A DNA stretch of 64,000 nt from Luteitalea sp. TBR-22 (lineage in GTDB: Bacteria > Acidobacteriota > Vicinamibacteria > Vicinamibacterales > Vicinamibacteraceae), in contig NZ_AP024452.1 in assembly GCF_016865485.1 (NCBI RefSeq), positions 3,556,501-3,620,500 on the forward strand. Direction: 5' to 3'. The position numbers and the translations under genes are program-made. Shown piece by piece: positions 4,277 to 10,377 of the stretch; position 1 is the stretch's first letter; each line of letters opens with the position of its first letter. The notes beneath the pieces were generated by a model. That model had not been told where the DNA came from, made no database searches, and saw nothing but the letters and a program-made list of their open reading frames with translations.

Positions 4277-5431
4277 ATGTCCAAGTGGTCCGACCGGACG
4301 TTCCTCGACGGCCTGCGCCAGGCCGGCGACCCGCTGGCCGACGCCGCGGTCGCCCGGCTGCGCGACGAAGGCGGCGCGGGCGCGGTAGGGCGCGCCTTCC
4401 GGCACCTGCAGGGCAATGCCACCCCCCTGCCCGCCGACGCGCCCGAAGCGCTGCACGCGTTCATGCGCGATGCCGGCGGCCTGCCGCCCTGGGTGCAGCC
4501 GTCGCGGCTGCAGCACGGCTCCAGCGCGTTCCTGAAGAACGCCCTCCCGTCGGTGGTGGTGCTCCTCGCGTCGAGCCTGCCGCGCGGCTACGCGGCGCCG
4601 TGCCTGACGCACATCCTGTCGATCTCGCGCAACCTCGAACGGCACCCGTACGAGCGGCTGATGGGCGTCGTGCAACTGCTGGTCAACGTCTCCGACCACC
4701 GCGCGTTCCTCGACGGCGGCAGCGCCATCGTGACGGCCAAGAAGCTGCGGCTGCTGCACGCGGGCATCCGGGTCCTGGCCGACCAGTATCGCCCGCACTT
4801 CCGCGCCAGCTACGGCGTGCCGGTCAACCACGAGGACATGCTCGCCACGATCATGGCGTTCTCGTACCTGCTGGTGGTCGGCATCCGACGCCTCGGCCTG
4901 CCGCTGGCCGACCAGGAGGCGGAGGACCTGTACTACCTGTGGCGGGTGTTCGCCGTGCTGATGGGGATCCACCCGCCGGGCGACCCGCACGACGACAGCC
5001 TCGTGCCGGCCACGCTCACCGAGGCGGCGGAGTTCTACGCCGCCTACGTGGCGCGCAACAACACCGCGCCCGAGGCCAACCCCTACGGCGTCACGCTGGC
5101 CGAGGACAACCTCGCGATGATGGAGCGGCTGCTGCCGCCGGTGGCTCGCCTGTGCGGCCTCGGGTTCGCTCCGCACTTGTGCATGACCGAGCTGATGTCG
5201 CCCGAGGAACTCGCCCGTGTCGGCTTCGGGCCGCTGCACGGCCACCGGCTGCTGAAGGCGATCCTGACGTGGGTCCTGCGCGCGGGACAGTGGACCGGCC
5301 ACCACGACGCCTTCGCCGCACACCTCGCCCAACTCGTGTTGCAGGGCATGGTGGAGGTCGACCGCCGCGGCGAGGTCGAGTTCTCCGTGCCCTTCGATCG
5401 GTTCGACCTGCAGGGCTCAGCGTTCAGATAG
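4277..5431 (+). CDS. DUF2236 oxygenase (MpaB / rubber-oxygenase-like)
   Basis: A 384-residue all-helical protein of the DUF2236 family, which includes the fungal oxygenase MpaB and the haem b-dependent latex-clearing protein Lcp. The core KKLRLLHAGIRVL (155-167) carries the conserved His (H161, a candidate haem ligand), followed by VNHEDMLATIMAFSY and LYYLWRVFAVLMGI, all diagnostic segments. No signal peptide is seen, unlike secreted Lcp. ATG 4277 is preferred to longer in-frame starts because homology begins there; TACAAT at 4238-4243 is a plausible -10. The next gene, 44 nt on, is a Pyr4-like membrane protein, so oxidation of a terpenoid or lipid is a reasonable but unproven guess. Confidence 0.8.
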   Translation: MSKWSDRTFLDGLRQAGDPLADAAVARLRDEGGAGAVGRAFRHLQGNATPLPADAPEALHAFMRDAGGLPPWVQPSRLQHGSSAFLKNALPSVVVLLASSLPRGYAAPCLTHILSISRNLERHPYERLMGVVQLLVNVSDHRAFLDGGSAIVTAKKLRLLHAGIRVLADQYRPHFRASYGVPVNHEDMLATIMAFSYLLVVGIRRLGLPLADQEAEDLYYLWRVFAVLMGIHPPGDPHDDSLVPATLTEAAEFYAAYVARNNTAPEANPYGVTLAEDNLAMMERLLPPVARLCGLGFAPHLCMTELMSPEELARVGFGPLHGHRLLKAILTWVLRAGQWTGHHDAFAAHLAQLVLQGMVEVDRRGEVEFSVPFDRFDLQGSAFR

Positions 5432-5475
5432 CGCCAGCCGCGGAGCGCTGGCCTCACCACCACGGAAGGGACCCG

Positions 5476-6186
5476 ATGACCGCCATCGTCTGGATCAACT
5501 GGCAGGACTACACCGGCACCGAGCTGTTCTTCTACGGCATGGGCTGCCTGCTGTGGGTGATCGCCTACGCGATCTACATCCGCAACATCTTCGTCCTGAA
5601 GTATGTCGAGATGCCGGTCTTCGCCGGTTGTTGCGACGTCGCGTGGGAGTTCGTGTGGAGCTTCCTGGCGCAGAACGACCTGGGCATGCTGTTCCAGGGC
5701 GCCAACTACGTGTGGTTCTTCCTCGATGCCGGCCTGATCTTCAGTTACGGCGTGCTCTTCCTCGGCGCCAAGCAGCTGACGGTGCCGCAGCTGACGCCGC
5801 GCAGCGTGTTCATCCCGATGTGCCTGGCCATCGCCGTGGCCGCGGGAGCGGCCACCTACTTCCTGCACCACCAGGGCCTCGACAACTCGGTCGGCGGACG
5901 GTCGGCCTACCTGATCCAGCTGTCGATCTCGTTCCTCTACGTGCCGCTGATGCTGCGGCAGCCGACCCTCGAGAACTTCTCCTGGAACGCCAACTGGCTG
6001 CGCGCCGCGGGCTCGGCGCTCGTCGTGGTGTTCTTCTTCATCCACTTCCCCGACGACTGGTTCCTGCTGACGATCGGCTGCACGTCGGCCGTCGTCGACG
6101 GCGTGTTCCTGTACCTGTACAAGCAGAAGGAACGCCGACTGGCGGCGGGGGTCGTACCGGCGGCGGTGAGCGCCGTCCCGGCGTGA
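5476..6186 (+). CDS. Seven-helix protein resembling Pyr4/PaxB terpene cyclases
   Basis: A 236-residue integral membrane protein with about seven hydrophobic helices. MPVFAGCCDVAWEFVWSF (46-63) matches the MP..A.CCN.AWE motif of the Pyr4/PaxB transmembrane terpene cyclase family, whose Glu is essential; here it is E58. FFLDAGLIFSYG (81-92) follows at the expected place, and the last helix carries VVDGVFLYLY with D208 where Pyr4-type enzymes have a second essential Asp. GAAGGGAC lies 6 nt before ATG 5476, a reasonable Shine-Dalgarno site. It follows the DUF2236 oxygenase and is probably co-transcribed. No prenyltransferase is nearby. Alternative: an uncharacterised membrane protein sharing only the fold. 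Confidence 0.6.
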   Translation: MTAIVWINWQDYTGTELFFYGMGCLLWVIAYAIYIRNIFVLKYVEMPVFAGCCDVAWEFVWSFLAQNDLGMLFQGANYVWFFLDAGLIFSYGVLFLGAKQLTVPQLTPRSVFIPMCLAIAVAAGAATYFLHHQGLDNSVGGRSAYLIQLSISFLYVPLMLRQPTLENFSWNANWLRAAGSALVVVFFFIHFPDDWFLLTIGCTSAVVDGVFLYLYKQKERRLAAGVVPAAVSAVPA

Positions 6187-6195
6187 ACTGAGGGT

Positions 6196-9100
6196 TCAGA
6201 CCAGGGCCTGGGCGGCCACGACGTCGGCGCCGCCAGCCTCTCCCCACGCGTCGACGAGCGGCCGCAGCAGGGCGGCCGCCTCTGCCGAGCGCCCGTCGGC
6301 GCCGAGCAGGCGTGCCAGGTCGATGGCGGCCCGCAGTTCGAACGTCCGGGCCCGCTGCGCGCGCGCCACCTCGATCGCCCGCTGGCAGGCCTCGACACAC
6401 GCCGCCGTGTCGCGGCCCTCGGCCGCGCGCACGCGTCCGTCGAGTCGGTGCAGTTCGGCCTCCCAGTAGCGCTCGCCCTCGTCCTCGGTGACCGCGAACG
6501 CCTCGGACAGGAAGGCCCTTGCCCGCTCGACCCGCCCCTGCCGGAGGCTCGCGTCGGCCATCCAGGCGAGGTAGCGGCTGCACTGCAGGGAGCTGGCGTA
6601 GGCGTTCCGCATGATGGCGATCGCGGTGGCGCCCTGCTCGATGGCGGCATCGACGTCGGCCGGCGGCTCGGGACCGCGGAGCGCCTGCACCGCCCGGCTG
6701 ATCTGCCAGAACACGGTCCAGTACTGGTAGCCGTGCTCGGTGCTGAGCGCGATGAGCGCCTCGGTGGCGGTCGCCGATCCGGCCGCGTCCTCCATGGACA
6801 GGGCCATCGCCATGCGGTTGACCAGTGCGACCGACTCGGTGAACGGCGATCGCTGCCGCGCCTCCAGCAGGGCGTCTTCCGCCGCCTGGATCGCCCGTGC
6901 CGGCTCGCCGAGCAGCCAGCGGACGTCGGCCAGCAACGACCGTGCGACGGCGCCGATGTCGTAGGCAATCGCGCGGGTGGCAAGGCCGTCGGGCGGGTAG
7001 AGCGACAGCAGCGTCTCGAAGTTGTCGCGTGCCTGCGCGAAATGCCCCAGGAAGAGGTCCGCCGCCGCGCTGGTGTACAGGCCGAGGAGCCGCGCGTCGC
7101 CGTCGCCGTGCGCCACGCCGTACTCGAGGCGCTGCTGCGCCAGCTCGCGGGCGCGCCGGAGCTTGCCGCGGCTCGCGTAGAAGTTCCACAGGCCGAACGC
7201 CAGTTCATGCGGCACGTCGCCGACCTGCGTGACCAGCGCGAGCAGGCGCTCCTGCGTGGCCTCGACCTCGGGCGAGCCCAGGCCGTGCACCATGCCGAGC
7301 GACAGTACCAGCGCGCCACGCGCGCCGATCTCCTTGCGGTCGCGTTCCGCCGTCGGCGGTAGCGCCGCCAACGCGGTGAGGGCCTGCCGCAGGTGGCCGA
7401 TGGCCTCGGCGTGGGCGTAGCGACCCATCGCCGACTGCCCGGCCGCCAGCCAGTGCTCGAAGGCCGGCGCGAAGCGCTCGGCCGACATGTAGTGGTGCGC
7501 GAGCAACTCGTGCGATGCCTCCTCGCCGTTGGTGCGCTGCAGTTCCTCGAGCGCGGCGGCGATGCGGAGGTGAATCTGCTGCCGCTCCCGGCGCAGCAGC
7601 GAGTCGTAGGCGGCGTCGCGCACGAGCGCGTGCTTGAAGGCGTAGCGGGCCGCCACCCCGAAGCCGCGCCGGTGCACGAGTCCCGACTGCACCAGTTGCC
7701 GCAGTTCGCGCTCGAGCTGGTCCGGCGGATGCGCCGATACCGCCGACAACAACGGCAGCGTGAACGCCCGGCCGATGACCGAGGCCAGTTGCGCGACTTC
7801 CTTGGCCGGCCCCAGCCGCGCCAGGCGCGTCGTGAGCGACTCGCGCAATGTCGCCGGCAACTCGCGCCATTCCGCCGAGTCGTGCGACGAGGTGCCCCCT
7901 TCCATCACCGACCGCGTGAGTTCCTCCACGAACAGCGGGACACCGTCGGTGCGCGCCACGATCTGCGCCTGCACCTGCGGCAGCAGCGCGCCGTCGCCGA
8001 CCAGCGCCCGGATCAGGCGCTCGACCTCCTCCTGCGCGAGCGCGCCGAGCGTGACCTGCGTCACCTGCGCCCTCGCCGCCCACGGCACCTCGAGCGTGTT
8101 GGGCCGCAGCGTCATCACGAGCAGCAGCGGCGCCGACTGCGCCTGATCGATCAGGCGGTCCAGCCACGCCAGCGTCGTCGCGTCGAGCCAGTGCAGATCC
8201 TCGATCAGCAGCACCAGCGGCTCGCGCTGCGCCATCTCCAGCACCAGCGCCACGAGCGCGTCGAGCGTCTCCTCGCGCTGCCGCTCCGGCGGCATCGCAC
8301 GCAGCGGCCGGTCGGGTGGTACCGCGATCCCGAGGAGGCCCGCCACGAGCGGCACGGCCTCGCCCAGGCCGTGGTCGTCCAGCAGCCCGACCAGCCGCGC
8401 CGCCGGCGTCGGGCCGGGCGCGGTCGCGAGCAGGCGCTGCAGCCACTGCACCACGGCGTGCATCGGCGTGTTCTGCGTGTAGGGGGTGCCGTGCGTGGCC
8501 ATCCAGCGCAGGGGCGCGTTGCCCTGCGCGGCATCGAGTCGTTCGCGCGTGGCGCGCAGCAGCCTGGACTTGCCGATGCCGGGCTCGCCGGTGATCAGCA
8601 CAGCGTGACCGTGACCGGCCCGGGCGTCCTGCCAGCGTGCCTCGAGCAGCGCGAGCTCGCGCTCGCGGCCGACGATCGGCGACAGGTCGAACACCGCGTC
8701 GTCGCCGCCGTCCTGGCCGTCGCGCATCCGCCAGGCGGCGATGCCGACCCCTGACCCCGATCCGTGGGCCAGCGACGGCAACGGTTCGGCCACCACGCCG
8801 CGGTGCACCAGCGATCGGGTGGCGCCGCTCACGACCACGGCGCCGGGCGCCGCCGAGGCGAGCAGGCGCAACGCGACGTCCAGCGTTGCTCCGAGGACCA
8901 CGGGTTCCGGTGCCCCGGGGCTCGTCGTGACGACCGCCGTGCCGGTGTGGATGCCGACACGCAGGGCCGGCACCACCCGCCCGAGGCCGGGGACGGCGGC
9001 CAGCTGTGCCTCCACTTCCCCAACCAGGTCGAGCCCCGTGCGCACGGCCCGCCACGCGTCGTCCTCGTGCGCCTGCGGATAACCGAAGTACACCAGCAAC

Positions 9101-10248
9101 CGGTGCCCCATGGCGGTGCCGAGGGTGCCGTCGTACCGCTGCACGGCCTGCAGCGCCAGGGGGCGCAGCTGCATCATCAGCTCGTACAGGCTCTCGGGAT
9201 CGAAGGCCTCGCCGGGCTCGGTGCCCGGGCTGGCCGCATCGGCCAGCTCGCAGCAGAGGACCGTCATCTGCCGGCGTTCCGTGCTCGTCAGCGGCGGTGG
9301 CGAGGGACGCGCGCTCGGCGGCGGCGTGGCGCCCTCGACCTGCGTGAACACCTCCGTCGCCGCCGGCGCGACGGCGCGACGCGCGCCCTTGTCGAGGCCG
9401 CCGGCCCGTTCGATGCGCTCGAGCGCCGCGGCCACCTCCCAGCTGCCCTGCGGTCGCTGCGCCGCCGACTTGCTCAGGAGACGGTGGGTGAGCTCGGCGA
9501 GCGCCGGCGGAATCGCCGGTTCGAGCGAGGCGACCGGATCCGGCTCGTACGCGCAGATCCGCGCCAGCGTCTCGGTGGGCGTGGCCGCGTGGAACGGCGA
9601 CATCCCGGTCAGCAACTCGTAGAGCAGCGAGCCCAGAGAGAACAGGTCGGACCGGTGGTCCACCGTCAGGCCCTGCGCCTGCTCCGGCGACATCGCGTGA
9701 CACGTGCCGACCACCGTGCCCGGGGTCGAAATCTCCTGGTCGACGTCGCCCTGCCACGCCTTGGCGAGGCCGAAATCGAGGATCTTCACGCGACCGGCCG
9801 CGGTGACCATCACGTTGGTCGCTTTCAGGTCGCGGTGGACGATGCCCTGCGCGTGCGCCTCGGACAACCCCTCGGCGATCTCGCGCGCCACCCGCACGGC
9901 CCGGCCGATGTCCATGCGCCCTTCACGGAGCAACCGGTCGAGGGTCTTGCCCTCGACCAGTTCCATGACGATCCAGTCGCCGTCGGCCGTCTCGACGATC
10001 TCGTAGATGTGGACGATGGCTGGATGATTGAGGCGCGCGGCCATGCGGGCCTCGCGGCGGAACCGGAGGCTGCGTGACTGGTCGGCCATCGTCGGCAGCA
10101 GGCGCTTGATGGCGACGGGCCGCTGCAGCGACTCGTCGAACGCGCGATACACCGCCCCCATGCCACCGGCGCCCAGGCGCTGCTCGATGCGGTACTGGCC
10201 GACGCGGGAGGGCTCGGCGGGCTTGCCACCGTCCGGGGTGGAACTCAC
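6196..10248 (-). CDS. Ser/Thr protein kinase with cyclase-like, AAA ATPase and TPR regions
   Basis: A 1350-residue multidomain signalling protein. Residues 16-280 form a complete PknB-like kinase: GAGGMG loop, AIK (K48), HRDLKATN (D140), DFG (D158), SPEQ. From about 324 to 480 is a class III nucleotide-cyclase-like domain (TVLCCELADA, VYFGYP, RVGIHTG) in which the first metal Asp is Glu and the second is missing, so catalysis is doubtful. A P-loop ATPase follows (VGRERE, then GEPGIGKSR), and the last 400 residues are helical TPR-like repeats. Such proteins are common in acidobacteria and myxobacteria. GTG 10248 is chosen because TAAAAT ends 8 nt upstream; a start at 10350 would add 34 unrelated residues. 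Confidence 0.88.
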   Translation of the reverse strand: MSSTPDGGKPAEPSRVGQYRIEQRLGAGGMGAVYRAFDESLQRPVAIKRLLPTMADQSRSLRFRREARMAARLNHPAIVHIYEIVETADGDWIVMELVEGKTLDRLLREGRMDIGRAVRVAREIAEGLSEAHAQGIVHRDLKATNVMVTAAGRVKILDFGLAKAWQGDVDQEISTPGTVVGTCHAMSPEQAQGLTVDHRSDLFSLGSLLYELLTGMSPFHAATPTETLARICAYEPDPVASLEPAIPPALAELTHRLLSKSAAQRPQGSWEVAAALERIERAGGLDKGARRAVAPAATEVFTQVEGATPPPSARPSPPPLTSTERRQMTVLCCELADAASPGTEPGEAFDPESLYELMMQLRPLALQAVQRYDGTLGTAMGHRLLVYFGYPQAHEDDAWRAVRTGLDLVGEVEAQLAAVPGLGRVVPALRVGIHTGTAVVTTSPGAPEPVVLGATLDVALRLLASAAPGAVVVSGATRSLVHRGVVAEPLPSLAHGSGSGVGIAAWRMRDGQDGGDDAVFDLSPIVGRERELALLEARWQDARAGHGHAVLITGEPGIGKSRLLRATRERLDAAQGNAPLRWMATHGTPYTQNTPMHAVVQWLQRLLATAPGPTPAARLVGLLDDHGLGEAVPLVAGLLGIAVPPDRPLRAMPPERQREETLDALVALVLEMAQREPLVLLIEDLHWLDATTLAWLDRLIDQAQSAPLLLVMTLRPNTLEVPWAARAQVTQVTLGALAQEEVERLIRALVGDGALLPQVQAQIVARTDGVPLFVEELTRSVMEGGTSSHDSAEWRELPATLRESLTTRLARLGPAKEVAQLASVIGRAFTLPLLSAVSAHPPDQLERELRQLVQSGLVHRRGFGVAARYAFKHALVRDAAYDSLLRRERQQIHLRIAAALEELQRTNGEEASHELLAHHYMSAERFAPAFEHWLAAGQSAMGRYAHAEAIGHLRQALTALAALPPTAERDRKEIGARGALVLSLGMVHGLGSPEVEATQERLLALVTQVGDVPHELAFGLWNFYASRGKLRRARELAQQRLEYGVAHGDGDARLLGLYTSAAADLFLGHFAQARDNFETLLSLYPPDGLATRAIAYDIGAVARSLLADVRWLLGEPARAIQAAEDALLEARQRSPFTESVALVNRMAMALSMEDAAGSATATEALIALSTEHGYQYWTVFWQISRAVQALRGPEPPADVDAAIEQGATAIAIMRNAYASSLQCSRYLAWMADASLRQGRVERARAFLSEAFAVTEDEGERYWEAELHRLDGRVRAAEGRDTAACVEACQRAIEVARAQRARTFELRAAIDLARLLGADGRSAEAAALLRPLVDAWGEAGGADVVAAQALV

Positions 10249-10256
10249 GACCGACC

Positions 10257-10262
10257 ATTTTA
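10257..10262 (-). promoter_or_regulatory. -10 box TAAAAT, probable leaderless promoter
   Basis: GATAAAAT on the minus strand is strikingly AT-rich for this genome and ends 8 nt before GTG 10248 of the kinase gene. Confidence 0.5.
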
Positions 10263-10377
10263 TCGCCAACTCAGGGCCCTCCCGGCCCGCACCTCCGTGG
10301 CCAGCAAATCCGTTTCCATTCCGGCTGGCCCTAGGTCGAGCAGTCGCCACCGGTCGGCCGGTGCAATAGTGGTTGGC

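Follow-up and report, generated by a model that had tools for sequence, protein, structure and literature searches.

Predicted haem oxygenase and Pyr4-like membrane protein genes recur together beside putative signal transducer genes in at least three phyla: a possible isoprenoid signalling cassette

Two neighbouring genes of Luteitalea sp. TBR-22, situated in the 64,000-nucleotide stretch of its genome analysed here (contig NZ_AP024452.1, positions 3,556,501 to 3,620,500; "the window"), encode a predicted haem oxygenase of the MPAB/Lcp type and a predicted membrane protein related to the terpene cyclase Pyr4. Judged from sequence comparison, these are two conserved proteins that recur side by side and retain their key residues in nearly all copies. 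The unit that they form is tied, in at least three phyla, to a putative signal transducer of interchangeable output type; the pattern is suggestive of a signalling cassette not described before and based on isoprenoid chemistry. We propose, with a rough probability of 0.45, that the pair is the input or enzyme half of this cassette, making or modifying a membrane isoprenoid signal that is read by the neighbouring transducer. The genes and residues concerned are as follows, in window coordinates.

4277 to 5431, forward strand: gene of the MPAB/Lcp-type (DUF2236) haem oxygenase, from the ATG at 4277 to the stop at 5431, 384 amino acids
4655 to 4657, forward strand: codon of oxygenase R127, aligned with R164 of the rubber oxygenase LcpK30
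4757 to 4759, forward strand: codon of oxygenase H161, predicted proximal haem ligand, aligned with H198 of LcpK30
5476 to 6186, forward strand: gene of the Pyr4-like seven-helix membrane protein, from the ATG at 5476 to the stop at 6186, 236 amino acids
5647 to 5649, forward strand: codon of E58 in helix 2, the last residue of the motif CCDVAWE (residues 52-58)
6097 to 6099, forward strand: codon of D208 in helix 7
6196 to 10350, reverse strand: gene of a Ser/Thr protein kinase with an AAA_16 (STAND-type) ATPase, the putative signalling partner, 1384 amino acids

The stop codon of the oxygenase gene is separated by 44 bases from the ATG of the membrane protein gene. The kinase-ATPase gene is convergent with the pair, from which it is separated by 9 bases. 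Pfam recognizes Pkinase (164.9 bits) and AAA_16 (85.7 bits) in its product, together with a cyclase-like stretch that stays under the cut-off (Guanylate_cyc, E 0.0078), and finds neither a membrane sensor domain nor a six-transmembrane-helix (6TM) receptor domain there. Another genome of the genus (L020) carries the same three-gene block, with a DNA identity of 75-80%.

The oxygenase matches Pfam family PF09995 (MPAB_Lcp_cat) with 55.9 bits (E 8.5e-15; curated cut-off 23). Its match to LcpK30 (PDB 5o1m/5o1l) has an E-value of 3e-14 for the single sequence and rises to 1.6e-42 with a profile of 24 oxygenase homologues, the alignment being nearly full-length. An earlier sequence-only reading, which had recognized a haem-type DUF2236 oxygenase related to MpaB and Lcp, was therefore correct on this point. 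R127, K156, R158, H161, R165, N184, T191 and W222 are invariant in all 24 aligned paired homologues; they include the haem-ligand histidine and the R164 equivalent, which link these proteins to the MPAB/Lcp superfamily of LcpK30 and fungal MpaB. In LcpK30, H198 and R164 are described as ligating or positioning the haem and as essential (PMC6311187). Hydropathy, the only criterion used, shows no N-terminal hydrophobic stretch in the window protein and no export signal is evident. Lcp rubber oxygenase, in contrast, is secreted. Six of the 24 homologues carry an N-terminal hydrophobic helix, again by hydropathy only; basic residues follow it, suggesting that their oxygenase domain is cytosolic.

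The membrane protein matches PF25129 (Pyr4-TMTC) with 55.9 bits (E 6.3e-15; curated cut-off 27), in agreement with its earlier assignment to the Pyr4/PaxB-like family. It shares with the Pyr4-like cyclases, including the bacterial XiaH, TylF, GroF and ZigF, a length of about 230 residues, seven predicted helices, a conserved membrane glutamate, a last-helix aspartate and the profile match itself. NCBIfam assigns no family to either protein of the pair. The motif CCDVAWE with E58 and the last-helix D208 lie where the sequence-only reading had put them. In Pyr4 itself the essential, catalytic acids are E63 and D218, of which E58 and D208 are the putative equivalents. The AlphaFold (AF2) model has seven helices, with a predicted local distance difference test score (pLDDT) of 93.5 and a predicted template modelling score of 0.87. 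Among solved folds, VIA-align places the KDEL receptor (Z 13.4, 178 aligned residues, root-mean-square deviation 3.7) and a SWEET transporter (Z 11.6) closest, but a Z of about 13 may reflect merely a common helical arrangement, as the tool itself warns. Foldseek E-values were 0.06 or worse. Among the best 50 matches of each fold search none is named a Pyr4-like cyclase, which is no evidence of absence. A profile built from 29 cyclases (A4) gave no sequence relatives in the PDB up to E 1. Weak matches to a bornavirus matrix protein were taken as chance.

Pyr4-like proteins scoring at least 124 bits with A4 are here called class A, while class B proteins, as found in the Bacteroidota sample, score 104 bits or less. 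Class A was counted at 36 loci (the window, L020-L046, L096-L101, L117 and L154), belonging to Acidobacteriota, Bacteroidota and one planctomycete. A set of 27 loci was obtained by scanning a species-level genome collection with the profile and motifs of four already paired cyclases; its titles read Acidobacteria/Holophagae, Bacteroidetes-type, Ignavibacteria, Kapaibacterium, Candidatus Uabimicrobium (Planctomycetota in NCBI) and a 'Desulfobulbaceae' metagenome-assembled genome. The samples of Bacteroidota (395 genomes) and Acidobacteriota (396 genomes) were drawn without regard to neighbouring genes. The class A alignment holds 36 sequences from 35 loci, L038 giving two. E58, W57, D84 and S152 are kept in all of them, and D208 in the 35 that reach this position, L023 ending before it. 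D54 of the window protein, inside CCDVAWE, is atypical, since 33 of the 36 sequences have asparagine there. Across the nine Acidobacteriota sequences of both classes, E58 is present in nine and D208 in seven.

An oxygenase gene adjoins the class A cyclase gene in 30 of the 36 loci, and a signalling gene lies beside the unit in 33. Clustering of the neighbour proteins revealed a recurrent gene downstream of the unit, which Pfam identifies as a signal transducer of varying type. Thirty-one such downstream genes were scanned as 32 pieces (A6), L027 being split, and most were also scanned singly; gene calls were mechanical and are weaker in GC-rich loci. Signalling genes account for 29 of the 31, the exceptions being L022 and L024. 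The 32 pieces contain HATPase_c (10), SpoIIE (9), AAA_16 (8), Pkinase (7) and Guanylate_cyc (5). Of 16 loci in which the spacing was measured, 11 have an output gene that overlaps the cyclase gene, four of them by four bases; some overlaps may be shorter because start codons were picked mechanically. Gene order varies (L022, L117, the window) while the association with a signalling gene stays: the transducer is upstream of the unit in L022, L101 and L117, and L117, a locus of the window's genus, has its oxygenase gene convergent with the cyclase gene instead of upstream of it. The contig ends inside the cyclase gene in L023, where a PD40 protein is encoded on the oxygenase side, and in L154; neither is among the 33. 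The output types are distributed as follows.

HisKA/HATPase histidine kinases: L029, L033, L035-L037
HisKA_2 kinases: L028, L030 and L043 (scanned singly); L027 and L031 (by clustering and the tally)
Another histidine kinase: L100
Adenylate/guanylate cyclases: L026, L034, L046, L097
SpoIIE/PP2C phosphatases: L025, L039, L044, L045, L096
Ser/Thr kinase-AAA_16 giants, several of which also have GAF and end in SpoIIE or a cyclase: the window, L021, L041 (scanned as L017), L042, L098, L099
Homologue of the window kinase-ATPase: L020
AAA_16 proteins: L032, L040
Kinase cut by the contig end: L038

The samples blind to neighbours agree with the larger set. In the Bacteroidota sample (the phylum of L029; G405, Catalimonadaceae) A4 gave 25 matches, 8 of class A and 17 of class B. 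A signalling gene adjoins the unit in all seven readable class A loci of this sample, and the oxygenase in five of the eight. In the Acidobacteriota sample all four class A loci have both. Two controls gave lower signalling counts. Among 147 genes three to six places away in the same loci there were 10 with HisKA, 9 with HATPase_c, 10 response regulators and 4 with Guanylate_cyc; families outside the 25 listed, including SpoIIE and Pkinase, have at most 3 members each. The total is about 30 of 147 if HisKA and HATPase_c share proteins, and up to about 45 of 147 otherwise. The flanks of 16 of the 17 class B cyclases, one very weak match being left out, contained 3 signalling genes among 32 (a PAS histidine kinase in L110, a protein kinase in L115 and a Roc/COR protein in L112). 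Fisher's test of 29/31 against 3/32, 30/147 and 45/147 gives p values of 3e-12, 1e-14 and 4e-11, respectively, which are descriptive only because the loci are related.

Output type follows the cyclase tree, with 8 changes compared with 17-23 in 300 label shuffles (quick tree, 36 sequences; the long branches L038b, L046, L117 and L099 have unsure positions). One supported group contains three cyclase-output loci (L026, L034, L097) and five kinase-output loci. Because the two types are mixed there, outputs have been exchanged within this group, in one direction or the other.

Many of the partners possess a receptor-like membrane domain of their own. The L029 kinase has an N-terminal membrane domain that aligns with those of 15 other partners of kinase, cyclase and phosphatase type and was modelled with a pLDDT of 87.8. 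The best PDB match of this domain is Mycobacterium tuberculosis Rv1625c (7yzk; probability 1.00, TMq 0.53, E 0.14), whose membrane domain reportedly responds to lipids, namely unsaturated fatty acids (PMC12505454). The L028 partner matches MASE7 with E 1.9e-4, under the cut-off.

Family membership and the kept active-site residues together suggest an isoprenoid substrate for the pair. The oxygenase would oxidise or cleave a carbon-carbon double bond in a common isoprenoid of the membrane, such as menaquinone or a polyprenyl lipid; a common substrate is favoured because a dedicated prenyltransferase is not seen beside the pair. The Pyr4-like protein would then cyclise or bind the product within the membrane by means of E58 and D208, and the neighbouring transducer would have the resulting lipophilic terpenoid as its ligand. 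In kinase, cyclase and phosphatase partners the receiver could be the Rv1625c-like membrane domain at the N terminus; elsewhere, as in the window, it could be a kinase-STAND giant. The whole might work in the manner of a synthase-receptor operon, providing either an O2-dependent readout of the isoprenoid state or a cell-to-cell signal. This synthase-receptor reading is preferred because the catalytic residues are conserved and a receptor-like domain is present in many partners. With somewhat less confidence, the O2-dependent haem oxygenase and the terpene-cyclase-like seven-transmembrane-helix (7TM) protein may be regarded as a portable input module that each lineage attaches to its own output (histidine kinase, cyclic AMP synthesis, PP2C phosphatase or Ser/Thr-kinase-STAND). 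This would be a new kind of signalling system, in which bacteria from three or more phyla use a cyclised or cleaved isoprenoid as a second messenger or pheromone.

Several observations weigh against the synthase-receptor reading. T168 of LcpK30 is near-invariant (99.6% of 495 homologues) and the T168A exchange is reported to reduce activity to 2% (PMC6311187); the corresponding residue is threonine in 21 of the 24 oxygenase homologues but valine in three (the window, where it is V131, L020 and L022). The distal haem ligand K167 of LcpK30 is not conserved in the homologues. Both features, like the missing export signal, set the window protein apart from Lcp rubber oxygenase. Six class A loci (L028, L034, L046, L097, L100, L101) keep cyclase and transducer without an oxygenase. 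A genome search found no oxygenase in the genomes of L028, L034 and L046, and those of L097, L100 and L101 are not among the 40 with an oxygenase match, presumably within the same 395-genome draw. The E-value of 0.14 makes the similarity of the L029 domain to Rv1625c weak, and no single receptor domain is common to the transducers (6TM, 7TMR-DISM, TPR-kinase, kinase-STAND), an obstacle for a common ligand. L024 has no signalling neighbour, being flanked by PurL-type AIRS domains on the downstream side and by a methyltransferase on the upstream side. Two further members of the window's genus have genomes without the cyclase gene. Finally, the window partner lies on the opposite strand, hence the three genes are not one operon there, and the link of the window pair to a transducer rests on conservation elsewhere.

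The persistence of the cyclase gene beside a transducer at the six loci without an oxygenase would be expected if the Pyr4-like protein were itself a 7TM receptor driving the transducer, E58 and D208 binding the ligand without catalysis and the oxygenase supplying or destroying an isoprenoid ligand or reporting oxygen. This alternative comes close because it is the cyclase gene that stays constant, while the oxygenase gene may be absent; swappable outputs suit it as well, as do the KDEL receptor and SWEET as best VIA-align matches. However, the acid pair taken to be catalytic in Pyr4 is fully kept, as for an enzyme, many partners already own a membrane sensor-like domain, and the fold matches carry the poor Foldseek values and the Z-score warning given above. 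A receptor role without catalysis is considered less probable than the synthase-receptor reading.

Still less probable is a plain isoprenoid-tailoring pair with a metabolic or protective product, the adjacent regulator controlling the pair or answering the same stress. Regulators near metabolic genes are common, the characterised members of both families act on isoprenoids (PMC13307353, PMC6311187), and some class B relatives adjoin UbiA (two cases) or FAD-dependent reductases. However, a regulated metabolic operon would not usually show what is seen at 33 of the 36 loci, an adjacent signalling gene that is mostly downstream, closely spaced and variable in class. The two-gene tailoring module that the sequence-only reading had proposed is upheld as regards the conserved pairing, but it misses the main feature, that members of this subfamily are found next to signal-transduction genes. 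That reading had also named two outcomes that would have told against it, the lack of any Pyr4-like profile similarity and confinement of the pair to the source genome; the similarity was found and the pair recurs elsewhere. A fragment of a biosynthetic cluster was provisionally set aside, as the families listed for the class A flanks (the best 25 of 35 downstream and 25 of 67 upstream) include no prenyltransferase, polyprenyl synthase or epoxidase.

There is little to recommend physical linkage without function, by which signalling genes are simply common in these genomes and the motif search over-sampled one spreading block: the 27 loci were found with already paired sequences and are not independent, and some lie in signalling-rich regions (L029, L033, L036), but the neighbour-blind samples agree, both controls have lower signalling counts and the association survives changes of gene order.

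The class A cyclase gene is an accessory gene in the window's genus. Three of the seven genomes of the window's family, all from this genus, match the class A profile. PF25129 occurs in 9 of the 396 sampled Acidobacteriota genomes, four of them class A; of the other five, four score 80-86 bits with A4 (L013 was left out). In a planctomycete sample 2 of 294 genomes match A4, one in each score group. The window genome is a single contig of 6.47 Mb; a plasmid origin was rejected, P0001 matching two Nostoc plasmids only, and weakly. Desulfobacterota was not accepted as a further phylum, as the genome of L044 draws the same genome sample as a Bacteroidota genome. For this locus (JAGXRP010000082) the Desulfobulbaceae title and the placement in the Bacteroidota group disagree.

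The oxygenase profile gave 49 matches in 40 of the 395 Bacteroidota genomes. A class A cyclase lies within 1.5 kb of 5 of 30 oxygenase loci (L050 and L122-L150; L138 ends at a contig end), so only some oxygenases are paired and the family as a whole is not diagnostic. No cyclase was found in the 1.5 kb around the second oxygenase copies of L067-L069.

The arrangement has partial parallels in known systems. Genes of rhodopsins are found paired with those of carotenoid-cleaving oxygenases (Blh/Brp). The placing of an oxygenase gene beside that of a 7TM protein is alike in logic only; the families are others and there is no evidence of a chromophore here. As in the CqsA-CqsS operons of a synthase and a 6TM receptor, class A loci have a putative enzyme gene beside that of a membrane receptor-like protein with kinase or cyclase output, the arrangement in the window being convergent. 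Systems of the CqsA-CqsS type use enzymes of other families. Class A outputs differ from these and from Rv1625c in that they also include SpoIIE phosphatases and kinase-STAND giants. The membrane domain of CqsS is reported to be able to drive Rv1625c (PMC4821796). XiaH, TylF, GroF and ZigF are assigned to meroterpenoid or triterpenoid pathways, and the zig cluster is stated to encode a prenyltransferase and P450s (PMC13307353), whereas class A adjoins signal transducers. The survey of bacterial Pyr4-like proteins described in the same report retained 264 of 1107 candidates by their terpenoid-gene neighbours, a step that would probably have filtered out class A. Among the matches listed in the open-licence PMC literature, none links Pyr4-like or DUF2236 proteins to signal transducers.

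If the proposed signalling role is correct, a branch of the Pyr4-like cyclases serves signal transduction, not natural-product assembly, and MPAB/Lcp oxygenases would have a sensory role. The occurrence of the same input module beside easily read outputs (cyclic AMP, phosphotransfer) would offer a genetic handle on the ligand and the mechanism. For genome miners, bacterial Pyr4-like genes dropped for want of terpene neighbours may hold a functional class of their own.

Some further features of the loci were noted. Among the class A loci that can be read on both sides, L024 (4404-6259) alone lacks a signalling neighbour, and its oxygenase is split in two frames, as if the module were decaying. 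The flanks of class B (L102-L116 and L118, Bacteroidota sample) contain ClpS (8 of 32), class II tRNA synthetase (5) and UbiA (2), with FAD-dependent reductases nearby and four short frames without a family; the setting is mostly non-signalling. A tandem pair of class A cyclase-like genes, the second highly divergent, lies between oxygenase and kinase in L038 (1555-2930). In L015 (9015-11026), which is outside the 36-locus count, distant Acidobacteriota cyclase-like and oxygenase genes are convergent, and a protein kinase with cyclic nucleotide binding is encoded next to them. A DUF6272 gene precedes the oxygenase gene in the Holophagae/Acidobacteria loci L041 (6246-6788) and L042 (6270-6818), where the partner ends in SpoIIE (in L042 by clustering). 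Lastly, a 1705-residue frame in L151 (3048-8162; G789) combines a caspase-like domain, a GDSL lipase, an MPAB/Lcp oxygenase and DUF5995.

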